The translations under genes were made by a program, and so were the position numbers. 30,510 bases of DNA, taken from positions 1 through 30,510 of the IMG/VR virus record IMGVR_UViG_3300047678_000819; one strand, written 5' to 3'. The notes under the pieces were generated by a model. The model was not told the origin of the DNA and did not search any database. It worked only from the letters and a program-made list of their open reading frames with translations. Origin of the DNA: a virus. This document shows, one piece after another, positions 804 to 30,510 of this stretch (position 1 is its first letter; each line of letters begins with the position of its first letter).

Positions 804-2831
804 TTATGGGTTGGAGTAGAGGAGTACGTAGCCAGCCGTGGCTCCGGCTGGAGTCTTGACCTTGATCACGCCGGCCCATCCGGACGGACTGCTGGCACTC
901 CCAAGGTCAGCCAGGCGATAGCCGTTGCCAGTACCGCCAGCGATGATAAGTTCGCCTCCTGCGGTGACTTCAAGGAGGGTGTGATCTGCGAGGTTCGAAC
1001 CAGGGCCAAACACGCGCAGCGGCGACTCCGTGTTGTCCTTCGCGGAGATCACGACCGCGCCGCAGGCTATTCCGGCCGCCATGATCGCGATCTGCGACGC
1101 CCACGTCCGGGCGTACCCGATCTTCGGGTCGTTGCCTTGCTGCAAGCACGCGCCCCACAGGTAGATTGAACCGGTGGTCCAATCGTCGCCGTTCGAATCA
1201 TACTGGCGCACGACGATCCAAAGGCCGGTCTGCCCGCTGGCCAGCGTGCCGGTGATCCGAAACCGCTGCCACGCAGTAGTGAGAGTGACCTGCGTCGGCC
1301 CCGCCAGGTATGCGCCGTAGGCGTTGTTGACGATAGCGAGAGACACCTTCCGAGTTCCGGACGCAACCTTCGCCCAGACGTAGAACGTGTACGTGCCGCC
1401 GTCCACGAGGCCCACGATCTGCTGCTGAATGATCGGAGTCGCTGTACTCGCGGTTACGGTGTCGGCGGTCGCGTTGCCGTCGGGAGCGGCGGTGTTGTTG
1501 GGGGTCACCGAGCAGGAACCGCCGTTCTTGTCCCACGTTCCGACGCTGAAGTCCTCCGAGTACTTCGCCATGTTTTCGAATGCGCCGCCGACGGTCTGGT
1601 ACGGGCCGCATTCGACGAAGGCTTGATCTCCACCGAGGTGCAGCGTGCCGGTGAAAGTGTCGCCGGCCTTGTTCACGGGCGTGTAGCCGAGCGCGCCGGT
1701 CACATCTCCCGAAGAGAGTGCCGCGACGGAAACTGCCGCGCCCGCCGAAGCCTGGCGCAGGAAGCCGGGACCTGTTGCGGAGAGATCCGCTCCCGAGCCA
1801 CCCCGCGCGAGGGCCAAAGAGCCGGATACGATATCGGTCGCGGTGTGGGTGTGCGTTCCAAGGGAGATCACCCCTGCGGCCAGCGATAACCCAGAGCCGA
1901 CACTCAACTCGGCGAGCGTGTCCGGGGACGGTGAGTAGAGGAGTTTGTTGGCAGCGACGGTAGTCAGCCCCGTTCCACCGCGATTCACGCCGAACGCGCC
2001 GCTCACGATGTCACCAGCGACATGAGTGTGCGTGGGCAGGTCGGACGAGCCAAGCGACGCACCGGCTGTGACGCGACCCTTGGCGTCCACAGTGACCTTT
2101 GGGTACGTGCCAGGCGTGACCGCCGTGTTCGCCAGCGAGAGGACTCCGGCCGCGACCGCCAGCCCGCCGACGGCGTCGATCTGGGCGATGCCTTTGCTCG
2201 CGGTCGTGGCATCCGGGTACGAGAACGCGCCGAACGTCTGGCCAACAGCAAAGTCGATGATCGCTTCCATGGCCACATGGTTCGCGGCGTTCAGGCTCAT
2301 CCCGAGATCGCCGGAATTGTCCGCCTTGCGCCACCGCAACGCTCCGTCATTGGGCAGCCGCACGAGGCCGGTCGCAGCCTTGGCTCCCGCGCCGAACTCC
2401 GCGCCGTCCACGAAGGTCTTCAGACCAGTGATCGTGACTGCGCCGTCCTTGCGGACGTAGTTGCGCGCGGACGCCACACCGACCTCGTTCTCGATGGCGA
2501 GAACCGCTGACTGAAGCGCGGTCAAGAAGCCGGAGACCATGTTCGCCTTCACCGCGACGCCGGAGGAGTGCTGCGCCGCCGACGTGCCGAACGCTCCCCG
2601 CTGGCATCCAGTAAACTGCGTTGCGTTCCTCGCGGTGTAAATGATCAACTCGTCGTTGATCGAGAGAATGCCGTACGTGGCGGCGAAGCCATCGGTGGAC
2701 GCGACGCTCACGGTCGAGTCGCCGGCGAGGATCTGCTGCGTAGCCGTGGTGTCGAGCGGCTTGGTCGAGAACGCATCTGCCGGAGAGTACAGGCTTGAAG
2801 CGTCGTCAATCGCGCTGGGGTAGTTAGCCAT
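804..2831 (-). CDS. tail fibre protein with HxH motifs
   Basis: This 675-aa protein is probably a trimeric tail fibre or receptor-binding protein. The N-terminus (about 1-100) is a compact virion-attachment-like region rich in Ala, Ser and Thr. Two THTH motifs followed by 'DIVSG' occur near residues 268 and 330. Such His-x-His motifs coordinate metal along the axis of trimeric phage fibres (T4 gp37-type). A 'GYTPVNKAGDTFTG' fibre repeat follows near residue 385. Residues about 415-560 read like a carbohydrate-binding beta-sandwich ('YSEDFSVGTWDKNGGS', 'YTFYVWAKVASG'). The C-terminus ends in the short 'GYVLLYSNP' typical of fibre tips. ATG 2831 overlaps the end of the upstream 1177-aa gene by 8 bp, and GAGG lies about 9 nt upstream. 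Receptor and host range are unknown. Confidence 0.85.
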   Translation of the reverse strand: MANYPSAIDDASSLYSPADAFSTKPLDTTATQQILAGDSTVSVASTDGFAATYGILSINDELIIYTARNATQFTGCQRGAFGTSAAQHSSGVAVKANMVSGFLTALQSAVLAIENEVGVASARNYVRKDGAVTITGLKTFVDGAEFGAGAKAATGLVRLPNDGALRWRKADNSGDLGMSLNAANHVAMEAIIDFAVGQTFGAFSYPDATTASKGIAQIDAVGGLAVAAGVLSLANTAVTPGTYPKVTVDAKGRVTAGASLGSSDLPTHTHVAGDIVSGAFGVNRGGTGLTTVAANKLLYSPSPDTLAELSVGSGLSLAAGVISLGTHTHTATDIVSGSLALARGGSGADLSATGPGFLRQASAGAAVSVAALSSGDVTGALGYTPVNKAGDTFTGTLHLGGDQAFVECGPYQTVGGAFENMAKYSEDFSVGTWDKNGGSCSVTPNNTAAPDGNATADTVTASTATPIIQQQIVGLVDGGTYTFYVWAKVASGTRKVSLAIVNNAYGAYLAGPTQVTLTTAWQRFRITGTLASGQTGLWIVVRQYDSNGDDWTTGSIYLWGACLQQGNDPKIGYARTWASQIAIMAAGIACGAVVISAKDNTESPLRVFGPGSNLADHTLLEVTAGGELIIAGGTGNGYRLADLGSASSPSGWAGVIKVKTPAGATAGYVLLYSNP

Positions 2832-5800
2832 TGAGCTTGCCCTCGTTCAACTTGAAGCGGTTCATTGCGCCCGATGCGGTTGAGACTACCGGCACCGCGA
2901 CGGTGGCCTCCAGCGCGCGGGCCGCGCGAGGTTTGTGATACGCGACCGCTGTGGCCCTTGCTTGAATCCATGCTTCGATCGGGATCGGCCTGCTGTTCAG
3001 GCAGAACTGATCGAACGCCCAGAAGCACATCGAGTAGAGCTTTGCCGCGCGCCACATCCCGTACGCCTGGGCGATGGGCGGGTCCGGAGGACCGTAGATG
3101 CCCGCCAGGTAAATGCACTCCGCGGCGGGTCGGCCAAGCACCTGGTTCGCGTAGGTGATGGTCTGGCGCATCCGGACGGCGTTCTTCTGCCACACGTCGT
3201 AATCGAATCCCTCGCACCGGAAGTACTTGATCCCGTACGAGGAGGTCTTCCACTCGTTCGGCAGGTTGACATGCATCAGGAGTCTCCGGAATGCGGCGTC
3301 CGGCGCGGGCTTCCCTTGGTTCGCGTCGAGCGGCCAGAGGCATTCGAACACAGCGGTCGGATGGTAGGAGCGGACGTACGCCATCACGTCGGCGCAGTAC
3401 TGCCAAATGCGGTCGCGCAAGAAGTCGGCGGTCTCGAAGCTGTGCGCCGGATCGCCCGCAGGGTCATTCGTGTTCGCCGTGAACGGCCAGATCTGGTGAC
3501 CATTCGCGGCTTGGAAGGTATCTATGGTTTCCTGATCGTAGAAACCCATCCCGCCATTCGGGTCCTGCGAGGTGTTGGGGAAGTACCACCACTGCGTCTC
3601 ACCGAACTGAAGCACGACCGGCGCGCCCGCCGCCGCGATCTCGTCGGCGCATTCCTTGTACATTTGGCGCAGGTAGTTCCGGACACGCTGCCCGAAGTGC
3701 ATCTGGTGCGAAGGGATCTCCAGGAATACGTCCGCGCCTGGCTGAACCACGCCGCCGTTGTAAAGCAGGTACTTCGCCCGCATCGCCGCCGGCGGACTAT
3801 AGACCTCCATCGAGAACGCGAACGACGCCATGATCCCCGCCGATTGGAACTGGCTGGCGAGATCGCGAATCCACTTCCGCGCGCCTTCGGTCATGACGGG
3901 CGAGACGGAGTCGATCAACTCCCAGTCGCCCTCGTCGCCCGCCGTTCCGAGGTTGCCCGTAAGCGTGAGGGTTACGGAGTTCGGCTCGCCGACGGAGATC
4001 GATGGGAACGTCCACGAAGGGGCCTTCGACTGAATGCGCAGCGTCGCGCTGGTTCCGAAATTGTCGTCGGCCCAAACGCCCACGAACGTGCCGTTGAGCG
4101 CGGCGCGCATCTGGCTCACGATGCTCTGAAGCGTTTCGCCATAGCCGATGGCGTGGTTGATGGTGGTCCCGGAGATCGTGATGGAGGCAACGTCGCCCGG
4201 AACGGGGCTGCCCGAGAACTCGATGGTTGCGTACGGGTACGTTGCTCCCACGCGCCGCCGCTTGTTGTTCCAGAAGACGCCCATGTACACGTCGGCGTGG
4301 CCCTGGAGCCCGAGCTTCTGGAGGTGCCAGAGGTGCCAGGCGGGGGGCTTCTTGTAGCCGTGGTCGGTGTCGAAGTCGATGGCGAGCGACACGTCCGAAA
4401 GGACCTCCGGCGCGTCCGGAACGTCCTGCGGCACCATAGGCCACAGGTAGTCGAAGTAGAAGTAGTACCCGGTGGACGCGGCGTTCTTGTCGTACAGAGC
4501 GGTGATCTCGACGGTATGGTTTCCGGCAGCAATGTTGCCGCGGACCTTGAGGTTCGCCGTCATGCCGCCGAACTCCGCGAGGTAGAGATCGTGCGTGGTG
4601 ACGACGCCGTCCACCGAGACGTTGATCTTTCCACAGTCGGTGTACAGGAACGTCCCGAGGTACAGATCGTGCGTTTCAGACTTTGAGTAGGTGATCCGCA
4701 CCTTGCGAACGTCGAGCGCGCTGGCGGGTGCGGTACGTTTCGCGTGGCCCGCGCTCCACCATTGCGTCGGGAAGCCGCCAGTGTATTTGTAGTTCTCCCA
4801 GAAGCCGTTGTACTTGCACCGGCCATCGGACTCCTCGATACGCGGTGCGGCACCACCAACTTTAAGGGCGCGGTCGCCGATGACCGTGATGTTCGAGATT
4901 GTAGCGGCCCACTCCGCATCGGAGGCGAAGCCGCTCATGGGCGAGAGCTTCTTCACGCGGGTTCCAGCCGCCCACGTGCCAGGCGTCGAGGACTGGTAGC
5001 CACGCTCTACTGTGATCTGTGTAGGCGAATCGAGGGCGACAAGGCGCATACGTTCCTCAACGGTGGGTGTGCCGATGAAGTACCGGCCACCGGAGAGTTT
5101 CGATGAGTCGTCCACCTGCCAGACGGTGTCGGTCACGCCCGCGCTCGCCGTGAGGAAGCAGCCATCCTCCAACTCCTGCTCCGTGATCTCGAAGCGCGGA
5201 GCGAAGACCATATACATCTTGCGGCAGTCGTTCATCGGCACCGTGCGGCCGAGCTTGTCGAGAAGGGGCTGCGTGAAATCGAGGGTGATGTGGTACTTGG
5301 TGTCGTTGTCGCCTCCGGCGAATCGCCGCGACGTACCGCTGCCGTCAGACCAGTCGATCTGCTGTGACCCAGGCGGGTCCGGAGGGTTGGCGTCAACGTG
5401 GCCTGACGTGACGGTCACCCGGTCGATGTTGCCGAGCTTGCCGTAGCGCGCGGCCGGAAGCGCGGGCGTCGCGAACTGAAGCTGGAGGCTGACCACTGAC
5501 GTGGAGAACGCCGTCGCGGTCGCGGAGATGACACCCGCTTGGTCGGGACCGAATCGGCCCGCGACTGGATCGCCAGTCGTGTTGATTATTTGGGCAAGCT
5601 TCTGAGACAAATGCTTCGCGCCCAACTGGAGCGTAACGAAACTCCCGGCGGGGTGGTTCATGGTGACCACGCAACGGATTGTGCCCGCGCCGACTGCCTC
5701 GACTCGCATCAGTTCCTCGTTCGTGCCGGTGCGCTCGATGTAGACGTAGTCGCCGACTCCGATTCCCGTCGTGCTCGCGACCGGGATGTCCTGCGCGGTC

Positions 5801-6357
5801 GTGCTTGCGGTGGCATCCGCAGAGAGAGTCGTCTCGACGATACAGTCGGTGTGCGCCACCGTGTAACGAGTGTCGCGGAAGTAGAGGTGGAGGTAGTCGA
5901 TCCCGTAATACGGCGCGATTCCGCCGGCGTCGAACTGGCAAGATGCCGGTGTCTCGCCGCCAGAGAGGACGGTTGCGTGATCGAGAAGGCGAACTTCGTA
6001 AAGGTCGTTCGGTCCACCCACGCCACACACGAATGTCATGGCGTCCCAGGAAACGGACGGGAACTTCGCGGCGTCGAGTCGCATCGCGCCGTCGAGAGCG
6101 TGGTCGTACTCGATGTCGAACTCCAGCTTCAGGTCGGACAGATCGGTGCGCGGCAAGTGCTTTACGCGCAGATGGTTGAAGTAGTCGTAGGCGTTCCAGA
6201 AGCCGAGCACCGCGAAATCTTCGGCGGCTTGGAAGATGCCAGAGATGGCGACACCTGTGGCTGTGGCATCGTGAATCGTTGTTGTCGCGGCGCGACCAGA
6301 GAAACCCTGCACGTGAAAGTTCCGGCGCGGGTCGAAGATGAGGAGTTCCTCAGACAA
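2824..6357 (-). CDS. large tail protein with possible glycosidase-like domain
   Basis: This 1177-aa virion protein follows the tail tip and cargo genes. Residues about 1-430 are beta-rich and include 'ATSTTAQDIPVASTTGIGVGDYVYIER' type elements, split here by segments; similar 'VDDSS...FIGTPTVEERM' elements follow near 420-460. Residues about 480-630 look like a beta-sandwich. From about residue 655 onward it resembles a TIM-barrel glycoside hydrolase: 'SLAIDFDTDHGY', 'VYMGVFWNN', 'VVLQFGETQWWYF' (E920), 'AVFECLWPLD' (E1005) and 'SMCFWAFDQF'. A phage-type insert lies around 690-800. E920 and E1005 are candidate catalytic acids, which is inference. The start is TTG 6357, because no ATG or GTG occurs between it and the upstream in-frame stop; the SD is weak. 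It might degrade surface polysaccharide or bind it. Confidence 0.8.
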   Translation of the reverse strand: MSEELLIFDPRRNFHVQGFSGRAATTTIHDATATGVAISGIFQAAEDFAVLGFWNAYDYFNHLRVKHLPRTDLSDLKLEFDIEYDHALDGAMRLDAAKFPSVSWDAMTFVCGVGGPNDLYEVRLLDHATVLSGGETPASCQFDAGGIAPYYGIDYLHLYFRDTRYTVAHTDCIVETTLSADATASTTAQDIPVASTTGIGVGDYVYIERTGTNEELMRVEAVGAGTIRCVVTMNHPAGSFVTLQLGAKHLSQKLAQIINTTGDPVAGRFGPDQAGVISATATAFSTSVVSLQLQFATPALPAARYGKLGNIDRVTVTSGHVDANPPDPPGSQQIDWSDGSGTSRRFAGGDNDTKYHITLDFTQPLLDKLGRTVPMNDCRKMYMVFAPRFEITEQELEDGCFLTASAGVTDTVWQVDDSSKLSGGRYFIGTPTVEERMRLVALDSPTQITVERGYQSSTPGTWAAGTRVKKLSPMSGFASDAEWAATISNITVIGDRALKVGGAAPRIEESDGRCKYNGFWENYKYTGGFPTQWWSAGHAKRTAPASALDVRKVRITYSKSETHDLYLGTFLYTDCGKINVSVDGVVTTHDLYLAEFGGMTANLKVRGNIAAGNHTVEITALYDKNAASTGYYFYFDYLWPMVPQDVPDAPEVLSDVSLAIDFDTDHGYKKPPAWHLWHLQKLGLQGHADVYMGVFWNNKRRRVGATYPYATIEFSGSPVPGDVASITISGTTINHAIGYGETLQSIVSQMRAALNGTFVGVWADDNFGTSATLRIQSKAPSWTFPSISVGEPNSVTLTLTGNLGTAGDEGDWELIDSVSPVMTEGARKWIRDLASQFQSAGIMASFAFSMEVYSPPAAMRAKYLLYNGGVVQPGADVFLEIPSHQMHFGQRVRNYLRQMYKECADEIAAAGAPVVLQFGETQWWYFPNTSQDPNGGMGFYDQETIDTFQAANGHQIWPFTANTNDPAGDPAHSFETADFLRDRIWQYCADVMAYVRSYHPTAVFECLWPLDANQGKPAPDAAFRRLLMHVNLPNEWKTSSYGIKYFRCEGFDYDVWQKNAVRMRQTITYANQVLGRPAAECIYLAGIYGPPDPPIAQAYGMWRAAKLYSMCFWAFDQFCLNSRPIPIEAWIQARATAVAYHKPRAARALEATVAVPVVSTASGAMNRFKLNEGKLNG

Positions 6358-6418
6358 GATGGCACCGACCGGTTTCCGATGGAATGTTGGAACTTGGTGA
6401 GGAGGCGCGAGCTAACGG

Positions 6419-7510
6419 CTACTCCTCGTTGAACTGAAAACCGATCCACTCATGCATGGTCTCGTTCCATTCAACTGGGGTTGCGCCCTCACCCAAAGTG
6501 ACTACAAGCACTCGGCTCGGATTTGGGGCATCGCCCGACATAAGGACAGAGACAGCCTCGCGCGCATCGGACGCAAGTACACCATGCTCCGAGGCCGGGT
6601 CAGTGACGGCGAATGTGATGAACATCGCGAGGTCCAGGCCGTTTTGTTGCACTCCCACCGACGTTTCACCCAGCGGACGCCGAAGCTTCTGTTGCTGCTG
6701 CTGCTGAGCCTCAGTCAGATGGCGTTCAAAATCCTTTGCGGCGCGCACCGTAGGCGCAAGGCTCCACGAGTTCTTCAGATTCGGATGATAGAAGAGGTAG
6801 TATCCTAAGTGGTCTCGCTGGACAAGCGCAGCGACTTGGTCGAGATCAATTCGAGCGTTTCCGCTGCGGCCAACCTTCTTGGACTGGAATCGAACGACCT
6901 TGAAGAACTCATCCTGGTCACGAAATTTCGCCTGGACTATTAGGCCGAGATCAGCACCCGTTGTCGCTTCCCGCCTCCCGGCAGCGGTGTCGGCATACCA
7001 AATCCGACACGTGGACTTCGGTTCCGTTGATTCGTTTAGGGTTGCCCAGGCGTCTCCAAATTCTTCTAGGCGTTCGATTAATTGCGAAACCAGATGACCT
7101 GTGAGGCGTTCCTCGTGGCTCCAGTATGGTACGTACTTGTGGAGGAAATGATGCTCAGCCTTCGCCAACGCCCAGAACAGCGCCCATACCGGCTTCGGAT
7201 TGAAAGATGTCGGAGCAGCCAACAACCCCTCGATAAACACTCTCGGGTTACTTCGCATCTTGCGACCGAAGAAATGCCAAATTTCTGGGTCATGCGCCAT
7301 GAACGACGGCCACCCGTTTTCTTTCGGGTGCACCAAGAAGCTGGATTCAAGAACAACTTGCAGGCTTTCTCTGAAGACATTCTCAAAATGACGAAAGGCT
7401 CCGAATCCCGTCCTTCCGCGCAGTGTGCCGTAGACCAGGGCCTGGGCCGTAGAGGTGAGGTGCGCAAACTCAGGTCGCTGGGTCCCAGTTTCAGGCAGTG
7501 ATTCGGGCAT
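6419..7510 (-). CDS. cargo protein with candidate PD-(D/E)XK nuclease core
   Basis: This 363-aa protein has no resemblance to virion components. The N-terminal half (1-125) is helical and aromatic-rich ('PVWALFWALAKAEHHF'). Residues 130-150 read 'HEERLTGHLVSQLIERLEE'. A candidate nuclease core follows: E181 and D187 in 'EATTGADLGL', a beta strand, then 'FQSKK' (Q209, K211) and 'IDLDQVAAL', then 'GYYLFYHP'. This order (E...GAD...QxK...Q...Y.Y) matches restriction-like PD-(D/E)XK proteins of the DUF6615 or defence-nuclease style. The assignment is by pattern only. A Gln tract lies at 269-274. The frame is open to GTG 7561, but ATG 7510 has GAAGGA 10 nt upstream and is preferred. Sampled lines are about 52-55% GC against about 65% in the next gene. 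It interrupts the tail operon between the J-like and fibre genes, which suggests acquired cargo. Confidence 0.7.
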   Translation of the reverse strand: MPESLPETGTQRPEFAHLTSTAQALVYGTLRGRTGFGAFRHFENVFRESLQVVLESSFLVHPKENGWPSFMAHDPEIWHFFGRKMRSNPRVFIEGLLAAPTSFNPKPVWALFWALAKAEHHFLHKYVPYWSHEERLTGHLVSQLIERLEEFGDAWATLNESTEPKSTCRIWYADTAAGRREATTGADLGLIVQAKFRDQDEFFKVVRFQSKKVGRSGNARIDLDQVAALVQRDHLGYYLFYHPNLKNSWSLAPTVRAAKDFERHLTEAQQQQQQKLRRPLGETSVGVQQNGLDLAMFITFAVTDPASEHGVLASDAREAVSVLMSGDAPNPSRVLVVTLGEGATPVEWNETMHEWIGFQFNEE

Positions 7511-7520
7511 GTGGGTTAAA

Positions 7521-7526
7521 TCCTTC
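7521..7526 (-). promoter_or_regulatory. ribosome binding site deciding the cargo-gene start
   Basis: The minus strand reads GAAGGA 10 nt before ATG 7510, while the alternative starts at 7561 (GTG) and 7558 (ATG) have no comparable purine stretch. A CATAAT box at about 7537-7532 could be a -10 element of a private promoter, but no convincing -35 box accompanies it. The whole leader 7511-7638 separates the cargo gene from the tail-tip gene. Confidence 0.45.
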
Positions 7527-7638
7527 ACCACATTATGTCTCAGCGCATGTGGCCACATCACACCGTCGCCCGCGTTCGGGCCAATGTGTTCCGGGACCTG
7601 CCCCGATTCTCGCGCGACACGTTACCTGCGGGAATAAA

Positions 7639-10600
7639 TTAGGTCTGGATCACCACCGTCAGATCGGACCCCGGATCGGGCGACGCGACCGAGAGGATAT
7701 CGAAAGCCAAGTCGTCGCCTTCGTTCAGAATTGGCGTCGGCCAGATCGCGGGACGGACGTTCTCTCCGGCCAAGTGGTCGCCCGTTACAATCGCATCGAA
7801 CGTCTGGTTGTCCGGATCGACGGCCAGCAGATGCACGTATTCTTCATTCGCCCCGCCGAGGTCGATGTGGATGAACCTCCCGACCTCCAGGCCAAGTCGG
7901 TTCGCGCCGTACGATGCCGTCGAGACGGTCTGTTGCGTTCCGGATCCGGTGATGTCCTGCGCCAACATGATTCCGTAGTCGGCATACGGTAGGCGGCGCG
8001 TGGCCGGTAGGCCGTAACCCTGGTTGTTCACCATGAAGTCGAACGTGTTCTTGTAGGCGGTCGGCAGCGACTGAGCGATGCCCATGTATTCGAGCGGCTC
8101 CCACGTAGCTCCGTCGTCGCGGCTGATCTTGACCAGATAGGCCGACTGGCCGTCGGTGGTGCCCTGCTGGACATAGGCATAGATGCACCGGATGGACGCG
8201 GCGTCCTGCACCTTCATAGGGATCGCGACGGTGTCTTGCGCTGCGAGCGCACCCGGAATTTGGAACGTGTAGGCGCCCCCATTGCAGGTCCGGTCGCCAG
8301 GCGTGAACGGTTCGCTGTGGTGCGAGAGAGGAAAGACCGTGAATGGCCCGAAGCCGAAGTGGTTTGCGACACCCACGAGCGCCGACACCACACACGCCGA
8401 GGGAAGCTTCGCTTCAACGCGTGCCGGGAGGCCGGGCGTCCGGAAGAAACCCTTCTTCACCGAGAACGTGAATGTCTTCTGATCGAGTTTGTAGAAACGG
8501 ACACCCTTCAAGTGCGCACAGCGCATCGTGCCGAATGTGGCTTGGCCGGTTGGTACGCCAGGGTACTCCCGCTGGAACTGGAAGTTTCCGGACGGGACGA
8601 CATCTCCTTCGTTACCCGGACCCACGATCTGAACACACTCGAACGAGCGCCGCCCGCTGTTATCCGTGTCCTTCGCCTCGTCGTTGAACACTACGAAGTC
8701 GCCCACTTTGAACTCTCGCGTGGTGTCGGGGTTCACCGTACAGGCCACCGTCGCTGGATCGGTGGTCTTGTCGAGCGCGGCGTCGAGTGAGGCCCATAGA
8801 TCCGCGGCGAGTTCATCCACGTAGTAGAGCGCCATGGCGACCTGCTGCGCGCCCACGATGTTACTGTTGCCGGAGGCATCCGGAAGGACCTCCATGTTGT
8901 CGACGGCGAACGTGCCGTAGTCGGAGAGTTTGGGTGTTCCGGTCACGATCCCCGGTACTCCGGTATCGATCAGAACCTCCTCCGGCACGTCGTCGGGAGT
9001 CACATCGGCGGGCTTCGGGCCGGTGACCAAGTCGTACATCGAGTCCGTGGTTGTGCGGCCCTGAATGTCGATGCTGTAGTCGTTGTTCAACCGCCAGCCC
9101 GTGACGCGGAACTCTCCCGCACCACCCGGCATGTCCGGGTGCGTCATCGAGCAGACAACCCCCGGCTCGGTGTTGAGCGCGAGGACAGTGGTCCGGAACT
9201 GAACGCCCCTCGCAGCCTTCCATTCCGCTGCTGTGATGCCGCCCAACTCCTCGCGGAGGCGAATCGCGATGATCCTGCCCGCCTGCGACTTCGAGAATGT
9301 CCCGGCGAGGTTGACGCTCGACTTGAGGAACTGCGGTCCCGCGCCACCGGCCAGCAGGAGCGCATGGTCCACGTCGTAGACGGCCACGCTGTTCGCGACG
9401 AACTCGAAATCCTCATCCGCGAAGTGCGCGGTGATGTGATTGAACGACGGCTTGAGCGGCGCGAGTTTCAGGCTGCGGAAGAGGATGTTCCCGTCGGTGA
9501 AAGCCTCGACTGCCGAGGAGTTCACCCTTACGCCAACCTTGAGCTTCCCGAAGGAGAACGTATAGTAGCCCAGGCAGTTGATCAGCACTTCCTGAATCCA
9601 GTCGCGGAGTGGCTTCTCCTCCTGCACTGATCCTCGGAACTTGAACTGAGTCTCCGTGCCGGTTCCGACGAGCTTTGTCACTTGCTCGTCACAGATCGTG
9701 GCCGCATCAATGGCGGCCTGCACGTCGAAGAACGTCTCCGCGAGGTCCAACTGCTGGGTGGTCGCGCCGGAGCCGAGACGCAGGCCACGCGCGCGGAACA
9801 GCATGTTGATCGCAATCCAGACAGGGTTGGTGAGGGGCGGGCCGTACACGCGCACGCCAGGTGAAGTCCAGACCCAGCCCTTCATCCCGCTCTGGACGAT
9901 GGCTTCCATCTGGTGCTCGCCGGGCTTCGACAACTGAAGTCCCTTGGCATCGCCGCGCCGCAGCACGAGGAAGGCGGTTCCAGCCGCGAAGTTGTCCTTG
10001 TAGGTGGAGTTGCCGGAGAAGACTTTTCGCCAGTCGCCGCCGGTCTGGTTTCCGGACTGGTCGAGAGAGAACCAGTCCAGCGCCCCAGCGGGATCGTCGC
10101 CGGAGACCGTGCGAAGCCCGAAGGTGCCTGGGTAGCCGTGGTGAAACTGGCCGTCGAGTTTGTGGCCGTTGCCGAACGTCACCGGGCCCTCGCAGACGAC
10201 ACCCAGCCCTTCGTAGAAGTCGCTCTCGTCCCGGCCTGCCGCCATCTTGCCGTTCACCGGCATGTCGCTGTCGGTGTAGACTTCCGGCATCACCTGGTCG
10301 TAGATCGAGTCCGCGACTAGCGAGACGCTGGTGAGTGGCGACCGCCCGAAGCCCCATGTTCCGGTCGAGTTGTCCTTGATGCGGACACCCTGCGGTTCCG
10401 CGAGGATCGCGCCGTAATACCGCTTCATGCCGTGCGCCAGGCATCCGTTCGGCGTCTCGTATCCCTTGTCGCACTTCGAAGCGTTGGCGTCCGGGAAGTG
10501 AATCAGGTCGAGAGCGCCAGCGGTCGAATACGGGCAGGGACCGGAGTTGAAGTGCTTCCAGCACGTCCGCGAAATCTTGCGAGTCGGGTACGGCAGGTTC

Positions 10601-11445
10601 AGTTCATACAGGCCATCGGCGGCGTTGACCTTGAACTCTGGACTGGCGTCGAGCGACCAGTTGACGATGTCGCCCTTCCAAAGGTCGAGCTTGATGCCTT
10701 GCCCGACATGGAATAGGGAGAACTCGATTGACGCGCGGTAGAGGTCCACGTCGTTTGCGAGGTCGCGCATCACGCGATCCGCGTTCCCGAACGTGAAGGA
10801 CGCATCGTCGGACTCGCCGCCCATGCCCTGCTGGATGCCGTCGAACTCCAACAGCCGCGCCTGGTACAACTGCCCGCCGATGGTGCAACGGCGGTCGGAC
10901 AGGTAAATCGCAGGGTACCCGCTCTGGAGAGGCTGGATCTTGACGAGCGGGACGATCCGCTGGACCTGGGACAGCAGCGCGTCCTTCAACGCCTGCGTCG
11001 GGAAGCGGGTCAACGTGGAATTGAGGGTATAGGTGGGAGGCGCCGCTGGGATCTCGATCAGCGTCAAGCCGACCGAGCAGATATGGTCCGCGACCATCTC
11101 CCACGAGAGAGGCTCGTTGGCGAAGCGGCATGTGTAGGCAGTCGTCCCGATGCCATCAACGTTGGGTGCGTTGTAAGTGAACGCGCCGTAGGCTCCGTAC
11201 TTCGACTCGAAGAAGTTCCGGAGGGCGATCCGGTCTGAATCGCGCAACGAGGCGCGCCGTACCGTGAACCGCTTCGCGCCAGTGCCCAGCAGGAAGCGTT
11301 GTTCGATCTTCGCGTTCCCGCTGCCGAACTGATGGATCGCCACGTCTGGACGCCAGGCGCGGCCGTGCTGATAATCCGGCACGATGGGGAACACGCCACT
11401 CGGTGCAATCTCCGGGACGGTGATGTTGCCGATAGTGTCGGGCAT
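7639..11445 (-). CDS. tail tip protein, M/L/J-like fusion
   Basis: This 1268-aa protein assembles the distal tail tip. Residues about 30-145 resemble the M-like or DUF2460 distal tail domain ('IALRNFFESKYGAYGAFTYNAP'). Residues about 150-345 resemble the DUF2163 / lambda gpL region, including a Cys set C295, C304, C325 and C335 ('TCWKHFNSGPCPY', 'KCDKGYETPNGC'). In lambda gpL relatives such cysteines hold an iron-sulfur cluster. Residues about 560-860 resemble the hub region of gpJ-type central tail proteins ('RDWIQEVLINCLGYYTF', 'GEFRVTGWRLN'). The rest (about 870-1268) is beta-rich and probably forms the exposed tip or fibre attachment. In lambda L and J are separate and K and I lie between them. 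Here no K or I is seen. ATG 11445 has GAGGAG upstream and lies just after the 87-aa gene. Confidence 0.85.
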   Translation of the reverse strand: MPDTIGNITVPEIAPSGVFPIVPDYQHGRAWRPDVAIHQFGSGNAKIEQRFLLGTGAKRFTVRRASLRDSDRIALRNFFESKYGAYGAFTYNAPNVDGIGTTAYTCRFANEPLSWEMVADHICSVGLTLIEIPAAPPTYTLNSTLTRFPTQALKDALLSQVQRIVPLVKIQPLQSGYPAIYLSDRRCTIGGQLYQARLLEFDGIQQGMGGESDDASFTFGNADRVMRDLANDVDLYRASIEFSLFHVGQGIKLDLWKGDIVNWSLDASPEFKVNAADGLYELNLPYPTRKISRTCWKHFNSGPCPYSTAGALDLIHFPDANASKCDKGYETPNGCLAHGMKRYYGAILAEPQGVRIKDNSTGTWGFGRSPLTSVSLVADSIYDQVMPEVYTDSDMPVNGKMAAGRDESDFYEGLGVVCEGPVTFGNGHKLDGQFHHGYPGTFGLRTVSGDDPAGALDWFSLDQSGNQTGGDWRKVFSGNSTYKDNFAAGTAFLVLRRGDAKGLQLSKPGEHQMEAIVQSGMKGWVWTSPGVRVYGPPLTNPVWIAINMLFRARGLRLGSGATTQQLDLAETFFDVQAAIDAATICDEQVTKLVGTGTETQFKFRGSVQEEKPLRDWIQEVLINCLGYYTFSFGKLKVGVRVNSSAVEAFTDGNILFRSLKLAPLKPSFNHITAHFADEDFEFVANSVAVYDVDHALLLAGGAGPQFLKSSVNLAGTFSKSQAGRIIAIRLREELGGITAAEWKAARGVQFRTTVLALNTEPGVVCSMTHPDMPGGAGEFRVTGWRLNNDYSIDIQGRTTTDSMYDLVTGPKPADVTPDDVPEEVLIDTGVPGIVTGTPKLSDYGTFAVDNMEVLPDASGNSNIVGAQQVAMALYYVDELAADLWASLDAALDKTTDPATVACTVNPDTTREFKVGDFVVFNDEAKDTDNSGRRSFECVQIVGPGNEGDVVPSGNFQFQREYPGVPTGQATFGTMRCAHLKGVRFYKLDQKTFTFSVKKGFFRTPGLPARVEAKLPSACVVSALVGVANHFGFGPFTVFPLSHHSEPFTPGDRTCNGGAYTFQIPGALAAQDTVAIPMKVQDAASIRCIYAYVQQGTTDGQSAYLVKISRDDGATWEPLEYMGIAQSLPTAYKNTFDFMVNNQGYGLPATRRLPYADYGIMLAQDITGSGTQQTVSTASYGANRLGLEVGRFIHIDLGGANEEYVHLLAVDPDNQTFDAIVTGDHLAGENVRPAIWPTPILNEGDDLAFDILSVASPDPGSDLTVVIQT

Positions 11446-13687: not shown

Positions 13688-14089
13688 TCAGGCCAACTCA
13701 ATCAGTTCGATGGAGACGTCCGAGCGTCCGGGGCCAGCAGTTTGGTTCCACTCACCGTCGAACCGGACGGTGTACCTGCCGGTCGTCGCCGCGCCGGTCG
13801 GGTCCCATGAGAACTTCGGGTTGGTCTCGTATGGATCGTAGAAATAGAACGGTTCAGTCGGCCCGCCCCGCGCCTCGTAGAAATCGCGGAGCGCCTGTAG
13901 CGGCGTGGGCTGCAGCCGCTTCGCCAGCCGCCACCGCTTCCTGCTGTTGTTCACCGGGACCGAGCGCTGCGACTCTCCGTTCCGGTACTCGTTTTCGATG
14001 ACCGGATACTCCTGCGAACGCGCGAACGCGCGGGACAGGGTTTGCGGCAGCACCGTCGCCGGCGCGGCGTTCTGAATAGAGCCAGGCAT
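13688..14089 (-). CDS. minor tail protein, M-like
   Basis: This 133-aa protein lies directly after the tape measure, where lambda has gpM. Its middle reads 'WRLAKRLQPTPLQALRDFYEARGG' (shown broken: WRLAKRLQ, LQALRDFYEARGG) and then 'PFYFYDPYE'. This is the helix followed by 'G...pF.f.dP' seen in lambda gpM and DUF2460-type distal tail proteins. The C-terminus 'YTVRFDGEWNQ...VSIELIEL' is the expected final beta sheet. It probably caps the tail tube at the tip end. It is 24 residues longer than lambda gpM. ATG 14089 has a weak SD and follows the tape measure by only 4 bp, so it may depend on coupled translation. Confidence 0.7.
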   Translation of the reverse strand: MPGSIQNAAPATVLPQTLSRAFARSQEYPVIENEYRNGESQRSVPVNNSRKRWRLAKRLQPTPLQALRDFYEARGGPTEPFYFYDPYETNPKFSWDPTGAATTGRYTVRFDGEWNQTAGPGRSDVSIELIELA

Positions 14090-14093
14090 GGAA

Positions 14094-17000
14094 CTACGAG
14101 GTCAGCAGTCCAGGACTCATCTGAAGCGTGGCCATCTGCCGCCGCCCGGAATTGGACCGTGCAGCGCTCATCGTCGCGCCTTGCACCGCGCGCGGGTTGT
14201 CCGCGATGGCTTGCACCGCTTCGCCGCGCAGCAGAGCGGTGGTCGCCGGGCCGTCCAACTGGATCACGACGTTCCCGGCACCGGACGGCACGCCGCCGCC
14301 AATCCGGTCGAGCGTCGGTAAGCCTCCCAAGCCAGGGAGAGCGGTCCCATTTGCGAACCCGGCAGACTGGAACAGCGAGCCTCCGGACTGCACCAGATCG
14401 AGCGGGCGCGCGGTGCCTGGCATGCCCGTCGGCTTCTGTCCGGTGCTCATGGCGTACAACTCCACGAGGTCACGGATCTGCTGGGCCCGGATCGCTACGT
14501 CGAGGTTGCCGCCGAAGCCCTGCTTGGCAATATCGACGATCTGCTTCAGGAGTCCCTTGTCGGAGATATCGACGCCGTAGGTCGCCTTGATCTTCTCGCG
14601 GGCTTTCTCCTGCGCGCCCTTCACGAACAGGCGCACGATTCCGGCCGCGAATCCGATTCCAGCGCCGATGGCTGCGCCCAGCGGACCGCCATACTTGAAC
14701 CCGATCAGCGCGCCACCAGCCGTCGTCTCGCCGACACCGAGCCACCCGCCGCGCCGCAATCCATCGAACGCCAAGAGGGCGCCTCCCATCAGCGCCGCGT
14801 TCGACTTGCCGATCGCAGAGAGCTTCTGGCCCATCGTCGCCGCCTGCCACGTCGTCGCGACGCCGGGAGCCAACTGCACGCTGCCGCCAATCCCGAGGAA
14901 GGATTTCAGGTTCGCCAGCGAGCCAGCCAAACCTGCCTTCGAGAACAACCCGCCGGTCCCCGCTGCGGTCGCCACGCCACCGACACCGCCACTTCCGCCG
15001 CTGTTGGGAATGAACGGAGGAGTGCCCCATCCACCAGCGGCACCGCCGGGAATCGGGACGCCGCCACCGAACCCACCACCTCCCGCGCCGAACACGGGGA
15101 CCGCGCCGACGCCAAGCATTCCGCCCAGCCCACCGAGGATGCCGCCGCCCGATCCTCCGGACGCGAAAGACACCTTCTGGCCGGTGAACAGTTGCATCAG
15201 CATCGCCGCTACGCGCGAGGAGACCACGTCCTTGATCGCGGTCAGCAGTGCGGTCTTGAACGAATTTCCGATGGCCGACCAAATGGACTGCGACTTCGTG
15301 AGGAGCGCATCGAAGACGCCTTCGGCCTGCCGCTTGAAGGAGTCGAATACCTGCCGGTTGTGGTCGCGGATCATCCCCGCCGTCCGAGTCGCGGCGTTCT
15401 GGCGTGCGGCGTCGATGGCGGCGTCGGTGCCCTCCTGGTTGGCTTGGCGGATATCCTCGCGCTGCTGACCCAGTTCCCCGATCCGCGCCTTGATTTCGTC
15501 GGCGCGATACCCGAGCCGCTTCAGGTTCGCCTCCTCCTCCAAGACCATGCGCGACGTTTCGAGATCGAACAGGCGCATCTTGATCTCGTGGACGCGCTCC
15601 AGGTAATCCACCTCGATTGCGGCCTTCCGCTGTTCGACGGCGACCTTCTGTTCGAGGGTCTGGGCATCTGCCGCCTCGACAGCGCGGAGTCGGGTGTCGC
15701 GGTCGATTCCAGCGCGCTGTTCTTCAACACCCAGCAACCGTTCGAGGTGTTCGAGGTTCCGCCGCGCGATCTCCTCGTTGTACTGAAGCCTCCGCTGGAA
15801 TAGCTCAGTCTCGAACTCCAGCCGCTTCCGGGCCGCTTCTTCTTCGTCCTTCAAGTACTCCGCAATATGTTCGCGATTGTCCTTGAGCAGCTTCTCTTTG
15901 AACGTTGCCCACCGGTTCGACAACTGATCGAGCACGCTCTGCCACGCCTTGCCTGTCAGCGCGATTCGCTGCTCGACTCCCCGGTCGTCGGTGAACGTCG
16001 TCCACTTCTGGATCTGTGCGTTCATCTCGGCGATCTCGCGAGCGAAGCCCGATTGTCCCCTGACACCGGCTTCGATAGCTGCCTGTCGAGATTCCCGTTC
16101 CACCTCGGCCTGCCGCTTGCGGATCTCGGCGAAGCGCTTTAGTGCCTCGAGGTCCGGTTCTTTGTCGGCCTTGCCTGCCTGCGAAATGGTGATCTTCGGA
16201 CCACCGAAATCAAACGGTTGCTCGCCGGGAAAGATCTGCTTACCCATGATGAGTTCCCGGATTTGGTCGTCCGTCATTCCCTGCTTGCGCAATTCCTCAA
16301 CGCTTGTCTTGCCACTGGCAAGCTGCTTGCGGAGAGCCTGCTGCTGCATCTCGTCGAAGCGAGCCTGGAGTTGCTCCTGCGTGTTCTTGAAGTTGTTATA
16401 GATGATCGCGCCCGCCGCGACGACGCCAGTGGCGAGTAGCGCGTAGGGGTTCAGGCTGGCAAGCCTCAGCGCCGCGATGGATTTCGCGAGCGCCATGATC
16501 TTTTCGGCCAGAGCGTAAGAGGCAAGGATGCCCGAGACCCACAGTGCTATCTCGCCAAACTTTGTGAGGCCATTGGTGTTGTCCTTGAGCCACCCGACCA
16601 GGCCGCGAAGATTGACGATCATCCCCTTGAGGTCCGCTTGGAATTTGGCCCCGATGTCTTCTCGAACGTTGTTGAACTCGCGCCGAAGCGCGCCGAGTTG
16701 GCCTTCGACCGTCTGCGACGCGGCCGCGTGCGCACCCTGAATCTTCACGCCCTCGCGCATCACCGCGTTGTAGCGGATCTGCTTCTCCTCGGTCTCCGTC
16801 AATGCGCGGCCCAGTTGAAGCTCCGCGATCTGGGTTTTCTTCTGGAAGTCGACGAATAGGCCCAACGTGCGCAGGCCGCGCGACGCGCCCGACTCGATGG
16901 CGAGGACAATGCCCTCCATCGCCTCGCCAGCAGATACGTTTTGCACCGCCGCCGCGTCCTTGGCGAGTTTGGCGAGTCCTTCGGACTTCGCGAGGTCCAT

Positions 17001-29684: not shown

Positions 29685-29882
29685 TCCTGCTTCTGCTCCC
29701 TCAAGAATCCGCAGTTCCGCCGACCAATCCGACAGCGCCAAGCAAAGGCCCGCAACATCCGGATGACCAGCCAGCAGCAACGCCTCGACGGACGCGATTT
29801 CCGCGCGGCACCTCGCCACCTCACGCCGCCACTGCGCTTCGCTCTGCGGCGACCGCGCTGTAGCTTCTCCCGTCGGCTTCAA
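29667..29882 (-). CDS. small phage protein, 71 aa, unknown
   Basis: This is a helical 71-aa protein with 'SEAQWRREVARCRAEIASVE', 'ALLLAGHPDVAGLCLALSDW' and 'SAELRILEGAEAG'. The 'AEI..vEa.llaG.PDv.GLcLAL.DWsaEL' pattern looks familiar from small proteins beside phage methyltransferases or terminases, but no function is known to me. The start is TTG 29882 with GGAAG about 5 nt upstream. It overlaps the 3' end of the methyltransferase gene by 62 bp in another frame. The alternative is that it is only a chance frame, but the regular helix pattern argues for a gene. Confidence 0.6.
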   Translation of the reverse strand: MKPTGEATARSPQSEAQWRREVARCRAEIASVEALLLAGHPDVAGLCLALSDWSAELRILEGAEAGPPPDG

Positions 29883-30510
29883 GCTTCGCTTCCTGCCCAG
29901 TGAATTCCTGCCATCGCCGGACGATCACGTCACAGTACTTTGGCTCCAGTTCAATCACTCGCGCCTGCCGTCCTGTTTTCTGGCACGCGATTAATGTGGT
30001 TCCGGACCCACCGAAGGGATCGAGAATCGTATCGCGCGTCTTGCTGCTGTTCCGGAGCGCGCGCTCGACGAGTTCCACCGGCTTCATGGTCGGGTGCTCC
30101 AGACTCGCCATGGGCCGCTTGATGAACCACACGTCGCCCTGGTTCCGGTCGCCGCACCAGAAGTGCTGCGTCCCGTCGCGCCAGCCATACAGGATCGGCT
30201 CATACATCCTCTGGTAGTCCGACCGGCCCAACGTGAAATGGTGCTTCGCCCAGATCACGAACGTAGACCAGTGGCCTCCGGCATCGGTGAACGCCCGGAA
30301 AAGCGTGTGCAGTTCCGACGAGGACATGCACATGTAGATCGCGCCCTTCGTCATCGCGAGCATGTTGGCCGAGGCCTCGCGCAGGAACTCATAGAACTTG
30401 CCGCCGAGAGCATCGTTGTCGATGGTGAGCTTCTTCGCCGTCTTGCCTTCATAGGCGACGTTGTACGGTGGATCGGTGAACGCCATGTCAGCGAGCCCGC
30501 CAGCCAAGAC
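29821..30510 (-). CDS. DNA methyltransferase, beta class (N6-adenine or N4-cytosine), partial
   Basis: The gene runs off the right edge, so its N-terminus is missing and about 229 residues are visible. The motif order is that of beta-class DNA methyltransferases: catalytic 'TDPPYNV' (motif IV) at the start, 'HPTMKPVEL' in the middle, and the SAM-binding 'LDPFGGSGTTLIACQ' (motif I) near the C-terminus. It belongs to the N6_N4 Mtase family. Phage versions often carry an upstream ParB-like domain, which would be outside the window. No cognate restriction enzyme is visible, so it is probably a solitary phage methyltransferase for host-mimic modification or regulation. The target sequence is unknown. 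The 3' end overlaps the 71-aa gene. Confidence 0.92.
   Translation of the reverse strand, partial: VLAGGLADMAFTDPPYNVAYEGKTAKKLTIDNDALGGKFYEFLREASANMLAMTKGAIYMCMSSSELHTLFRAFTDAGGHWSTFVIWAKHHFTLGRSDYQRMYEPILYGWRDGTQHFWCGDRNQGDVWFIKRPMASLEHPTMKPVELVERALRNSSKTRDTILDPFGGSGTTLIACQKTGRQARVIELEPKYCDVIVRRWQEFTGQEAKLEADGRSYSAVAAERSAVAA

Follow-up and report, generated by a model that had tools for sequence, protein, structure and literature searches.

The window, by which we mean the whole 30.5-kb stretch of DNA analysed here, is a viral record in which a gene of 363 codons lies between tail genes that share its minus strand. The features of the locus are as follows.

7639..11445, minus strand: left flank, tail-tip J-like protein of 1268 aa (PHROG central tail fibre J; relatives of 54-95% identity)
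6358..7638, minus strand: inserted segment from the J stop to the start of the TIM-barrel gene, 1,281 nt, GC 56%, delimited by alignments with the related contigs L013 and L033
6419..7510, minus strand: DUF6615-like cargo gene for a 363-aa putative PD-(D/E)XK nuclease (intact frame, third-position GC, core homology, invariant residues)
6782..7117, minus strand: nuclease-like core, residues 132-243 (E133 in the first helix, GAD187, Q209-S-K211, Q225, YYLFYHP)
2824..6357, minus strand: right flank, TIM-barrel fibre-like protein of 1177 aa (Pfam PF23845, E 2e-8), which adjoins J in relatives
804..2831, minus strand: tail-fibre-like gene of 675 aa with a carbohydrate-binding domain (CBM_4_9, E 4e-9; tail PHROGs)

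Results

Properties of the 363-aa gene

The frame is uninterrupted from an ATG at 7510 to a stop at 6419, and a GTG 17 codons upstream of the ATG is a possible alternative start. The first-pass annotation had described a lower-GC gene with its own ribosome-binding site inside the tail operon, and both points hold: GC is 55.6% in the gene vs 62.5% in the whole window, third-position GC is 0.615 vs 0.791 +/- 0.032 in 20 phage genes (z = -5.4), and a purine-rich, Shine-Dalgarno-like AAGGA stands about 11 nt ahead of the ATG. Within the insert (6358-7638) there are neither repeats at the ends nor a tRNA, an Rfam family or a recombinase at the site; no sigma-70-like promoter and no meaningful terminator were found in it, and its flanks fold no better than shuffled sequences. 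Elsewhere in the window, positions 29821-30507 hold a probable DNA methyltransferase gene, recognised by eye and cut by the end of the record.

Direct searches with the 363-aa protein returned nothing. It matched no Pfam family at E <= 1, the DUF6615 model included, and no PADLOC model at E <= 1, those of Shedu, Kiwa and the other named systems included; sequence searches of PHROGs, NCBIfam and PDB gave no match, and tblastn found no relative in phage, plasmid, IMG/VR and GTDB collections. Relatives were therefore reached only by way of the relatives of J.

The J/fibre junction is a variable cargo site

Starting from J, we collected relatives of 54-95% identity from IMG/VR and from Acidobacteriota genomes, many of them labelled Bryobacterales or Bryobacteraceae. 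Several are embedded in long chromosomal contigs (L058, a nearly complete 6.2-Mb genome; L044, 562 kb; L046, 320 kb) and are thus prophages. Some genomes carry five or more J copies. Three Acidobacteriota MAGs (JACQZR01, JADLBD01 and CAIRSA01; L033-L067) hold three to seven copies each, with differing cargo or an empty site, an observation that suggests either heavy polylysogeny or binned mixtures of phages.

Counting contigs, which are not independent events as some are near-copies of one another, the site is empty in 26 distinct contigs, where the J stop and the fibre start are 1-15 nt apart and the genes abut, and occupied by changing inserts in 59, the window among them, where 166 to 5,616 nt separate the J stop from the next start codon. 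Insert GC lies below that of the contig's own J gene in 59/59 (median 0.566 vs 0.645). The borders are exact: inserts start after the J stop codon and end at the next start codon, with no common border sequence. The J proteins of L013 and L033 share 94% identity with that of the window; when the two contigs are aligned with the window as nucleotide sequences, the alignment ends at the J stop and picks up again no more than a few codons from where the fibre gene starts. The site is empty in L033 and holds an AIPR gene in L013, an Mrr gene in L003 and the DUF6615-like gene in the window; with J proteins so close, this turnover of cargo must be fast.

The J/fibre junction is thus a fixed site in related phages that is either empty or filled with changing cargo. 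Since the flanking genes abut or enclose other genes in relatives, the 363-aa gene is itself cargo and not a virion gene, in keeping with its earlier description as non-structural. Its position between two tail genes would suit a virion or tail-assembly component peculiar to the window phage, but it is missing from relatives in which the J and fibre genes abut, the genes that replace it belong to defence and toxin-antitoxin families, and no tail PHROG matches it; we consider such a role extremely unlikely. The tail tip-fibre gap, previously taken to be an unusual place for cargo, turned out to be a main cargo site in this group of Bryobacterales phages, and in lambda, too, the dispensable lom is situated between J and stf (PMC10695390).

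About three quarters of the occupants, judged by eye, are antisense to the late operon, whereas the cargo gene of the window is co-directional with it. This orientation, together with the lack of a sigma-70-like promoter, means that it could be a late gene, for instance a takeover or counter-defence nuclease co-transcribed with the tail genes and acting on host or rival DNA during lytic growth. The late-operon strand, the gene's own Shine-Dalgarno-like sequence and the missing promoter all agree with this, but the antisense orientation of most other cargo indicates that the site favours independently expressed genes, and the family relatives described below are chromosomal genes. We hold a late factor to be unlikely.

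Recognised defence systems occupy the site

Occupants were identified by Pfam and PADLOC searches, and recognised defence systems are present among them. One is a whole two-gene CBASS in L082, made up of a CD-NTase and a Cap15 effector (E 2e-123 and 7e-70). Strong matches were also obtained for a Schlafen (SLFN) helicase, PDC-S41 (L049, E 3e-188), GmrSD/HEC-06 (L119, E 8e-103), CAP12-TIR/PDC-S35 (L020, E 8e-74), Lit (L096, E 7e-58), DUF4238 (L018, E 4e-34) and AIPR/AbiU (L013, E 2e-24). Further occupants are Mrr_cat (L003), an HD/dGTPase-like protein (L028), a LinB-like nucleotidyltransferase (L008/L021), a TIR_2/ThsB-like protein (L045), SLFN_AlbA_2 (L086), PDC-S26 (L110), NYN (L099), HNH_5 (L108), UPF0489 (L097) and a radical SAM protein with weak similarity to viperin (L121). 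Among the short inserts, toxin-antitoxin-like pairs were recognised by eye: BrnTA-like in L005, L114, L117, L118 and L068, HicAB-like in L077 and L102, and VapBC-like in L047 and L050. In all, the catalogue comprises some 45 cargo types, of which about a third are recognisable and most are nameless; metabolic-looking cargo also occurs.

PADLOC matched 13/43 cargo proteins. For comparison, a control set of 52 genes, taken from five arbitrary locations in one host genome, was searched at a PADLOC threshold of 1e-5; these genes matched 12 PADLOC families, probably representing about six proteins and including some housekeeping cross-matches (DndA/SspA). With a control count that is 12 of 52 genes at the most and probably nearer 6, the 13/43 cargo proteins give a p value from 0.29 to 0.02 depending on that count, so that the enrichment in defence genes by counting is modest; what carries the argument for a hotspot is that specific systems are matched strongly and over their full length. 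These occupants (CBASS, GmrSD, Lit, AIPR, TIR, Mrr and the toxin-antitoxin pairs) speak for the defence-type character that the cargo gene had been given earlier.

A second variable cargo site was observed directly after the tape-measure gene. It is empty in 37 contigs, including the window (14089-14094), and holds a conserved gene of 130-150 aa in many others; elsewhere, deoxyribosyltransferase/TIR-like, GIY-YIG-like, HigA-like antitoxin and unnamed genes were recognised by eye. Inserts at this site lie at L008 8073-9264, L013 7764-8319, L032 8648-9286 and L015 1544-2604.

The cargo gene belongs to a family homologous to DUF6615

Another occupant of the J/fibre site, a 351-aa protein in L123, shares its core with the window protein (BLASTP 29% over 76 columns, E 2e-5). 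A profile of these two sequences, searched against Acidobacteriota genomes, retrieved further family relatives (L160, L161/L171, L164/L169 and L197-L200). The relative in L161/L171 adjoins an integron integrase whose closest PDB chain is IntI4 (2a3v, E 2e-86), and another cassette of the L171 array is related to the phage cargo of L019 (E 3e-37). This Acidobacteriota integron array (L171 1911-6433, genome G081) therefore contains relatives of both the L123/window family and the L019 cargo, hinting at a gene pool common to integrons and the J/fibre site of the phages. The related proteins of the L019 phage (14236-15924) and the L171 integron (1911-2711) appear by eye to be adenylate-cyclase-like, the L019 cargo matched nothing in Pfam or PADLOC, and the protein is a candidate for a new signalling-type system.

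The relative in L164/L169 begins where a KwaB gene (E 2e-92) ends, at its stop codon, in a neighbourhood with NurA-, HerA- and Dam methylase-like genes (by eye). In genome G390 (L169 6556-8309) the order is a small membrane-protein gene, KwaB and then the window-family gene, possibly a version of Kiwa extended by a third, nuclease-like gene. The likeness to Kiwa (KwaA-KwaB) is limited to this family member directly behind KwaB, whereas the cargo gene of the window has no adjoining KwaB; canonical Kiwa is not known to include a third gene. L197 is 44% identical to L123, and in both L197 and L198 the same partner gene comes next. This arrangement is a two-gene module of Bryobacterales, in which a nuclease-like member precedes a conserved partner of 371-383 aa (L201 7955-10165, L202 44-2433) that may resemble DUF6236. 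The integron cassettes and the position behind KwaB give further support to a defence-type gene.

In order to avoid circularity, homology to DUF6615 was assessed with the window protein left out, the profile being built from eight other family cores and three DUF6615 cores. In a search of the 13,834 ORFs from all loci, this profile of 11 relatives picked out the window protein with an E value of 1.7e-5, the next non-member coming at E 9. When the DUF6615 cores were omitted, the window protein scored E 0.0085 and was outranked by one sequence, a DUF6615 member; with the DUF6615 cores alone it was found at E 17. Comparison of the family with DUF6615 by hhalign gave 87%, vs 0.2% for an unrelated alignment used as control. 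The earlier guess of DUF6615 was thus right as a statement of homology.

Seven residues, E133, D187, Q209, K211, Q225, Y238 and Y241, are invariant in 12/12 aligned sequences. The first-pass annotation had listed E181-x5-D187, Q209-x-K211, Q225 and YYLFY, all of which are in the protein as described; its choice of E181 as the key acid has to be revised, since E181 is not invariant (most of the 12 aligned relatives have an acidic residue at 180 or 181) and the acidic position of the first helix that never varies is E133. With DUF6615 (PF20320) the family shares, in the same order, an EE-x-LT helix, E/EE...GAD, Q-x-K, Q and Y-x-x-Y. It differs in that the window protein reads GADLG where two of three DUF6615 members read GADWE, and in that its N- and C-terminal parts cannot be aligned. 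A DNA pattern for GADLG-x19-QxK was also run against viral contigs, and its seven matches were judged to be due to chance.

The core follows the PD-(D/E)XK pattern

By residue order and kind, the core reads as that of a PD-(D/E)XK nuclease in which Q would replace the second acid: E133 falls in the first helix, D187 in the second strand and Q209-x-K211 in the third. The elements of the AlphaFold models (H132-161, E167-174, E186-195, E201-208, H223-230, E235-243) come in the alpha-beta-beta-beta-alpha-beta order of a PD-(D/E)XK core, at a pLDDT of 39. Both AlphaFold runs, each with a two-sequence alignment, reached this same pLDDT, at which neither the modelled fold nor the failure of Foldseek to match the first model carries meaning. 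Profile comparison with Mrr_cat gave probabilities of only 5% and 2%, and a match of the core to PDB 2aby at E 0.07 was judged too weak. The type IV restriction endonucleases of Mrr_cat (PF04471) share the D ... Q-x-K order, and one of their genes occupies the same site in L003, but the 2-5% of the profile comparison and the lack of sequence membership set the window family apart. The PD-(D/E)XK fold proposed earlier is as pattern-based as before. The predicted nuclease activity derives from the motif and from homology to DUF6615, itself an uncharacterised family.

With models at pLDDT 39, and with toxin-antitoxin and metabolic-looking cargo at the same site, the gene may serve some other purpose as cargo (in plasmid-type stabilisation, in host fitness or in signalling) or may be a decayed gene, its fold bearing no more than a resemblance to the nuclease motif. 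Against this stand the intact frame and the retention of the motif residues across 12 divergent relatives, and we find it rather improbable.

Discussion

We conclude that the gene is cargo of a prophage (a moron) in the J/fibre hotspot, where inserts fit exactly from the stop codon of J to the start codon of the tail gene that follows in a group of Bryobacterales (Acidobacteriota) temperate phages. It probably acts as a single-gene system, a DUF6615-like PD-(D/E)XK DNA nuclease with a protective role in the lysogen, where it would be expressed. In the mechanism we propose, invading DNA would be cleaved by the core, with E133, D187, Q209 and K211 placed around a metal ion, and the helical N-terminus (residues ~1-130, unique to this protein) and the C-terminus (~245-363) may recognise the target or restrain the enzyme. 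Such a nuclease would act on other phages or on plasmids that enter the lysogen. Cargo would be replaced by recombination through the conserved 3' end of J and 5' end of the fibre gene; the site has no repeats, tRNA or recombinase.

A nuclease-like gene alone at the exact junction of two conserved genes also calls to mind a free-standing homing endonuclease, which would cut the empty J/fibre junction of co-infecting phages, copy itself by repair and spread selfishly, and HNH-type proteins do occur at the site in L031 and L108. Yet the site harbours some 45 unrelated cargo types, most of them not nucleases and on both strands, the gene is missing from the nearest phages, whose J is 94% identical, and the family relatives lie in integrons, behind KwaB and in chromosomes rather than at J junctions. 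Homing is therefore very unlikely, and we rejected it, together with a virion role, in view of the diverse cargo and the relatives without the gene.

Hotspots for defence genes have been described in P2 and P4 as well as in Vibrio and Bacillus prophages (PMC9122126), and the P2/P4 and other prophage hotspots (Rousset et al. 2022, PMC9122126) likewise combine a fixed site with changing one- or two-gene systems that are mostly unnamed. The hotspots outside E. coli that are described there adjoin repressor or integrase genes, whereas the site reported here lies in the late operon, from J to the fibre gene, of Acidobacteriota phages. A late operon is also where JBD26 carries its defence moron Tab (PMC10884400). 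Both lom and Tab are single genes at places of their own, and the available parts of PMC10695390 and PMC10884400 hold no changing catalogue of defence systems at one junction. Within the open papers covered by the literature search, a site with many defence systems and exact borders at the J/fibre junction of Acidobacteriota phages appears to be new.

Conclusions

Phages of soil and groundwater Acidobacteria carry often-swapped cargo, which is often anti-phage defence, at one junction of tail genes. We are somewhat inclined to regard this junction as an undescribed defence hotspot of temperate Acidobacteriota phages, where each phage carries one small system from a pool partly shared with integrons and where the nameless occupants are candidate defence systems. 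Prophage hotspots in enterobacteria, Vibrio and Bacillus have been a productive source of new anti-phage systems, and a comparable site is now at hand in phages of an abundant and hardly cultured soil phylum, with a ready list of ~45 cargo types. Lying in the late tail operon, such a site would be missed by defence scans of prophage ends. The DUF6615-like family, found also behind KwaB and in integrons, is testable, with defined residues to mutate. If the hotspot reading is true, the nameless occupants, the family of the window protein among them, would form a catalogue of candidate defence systems.
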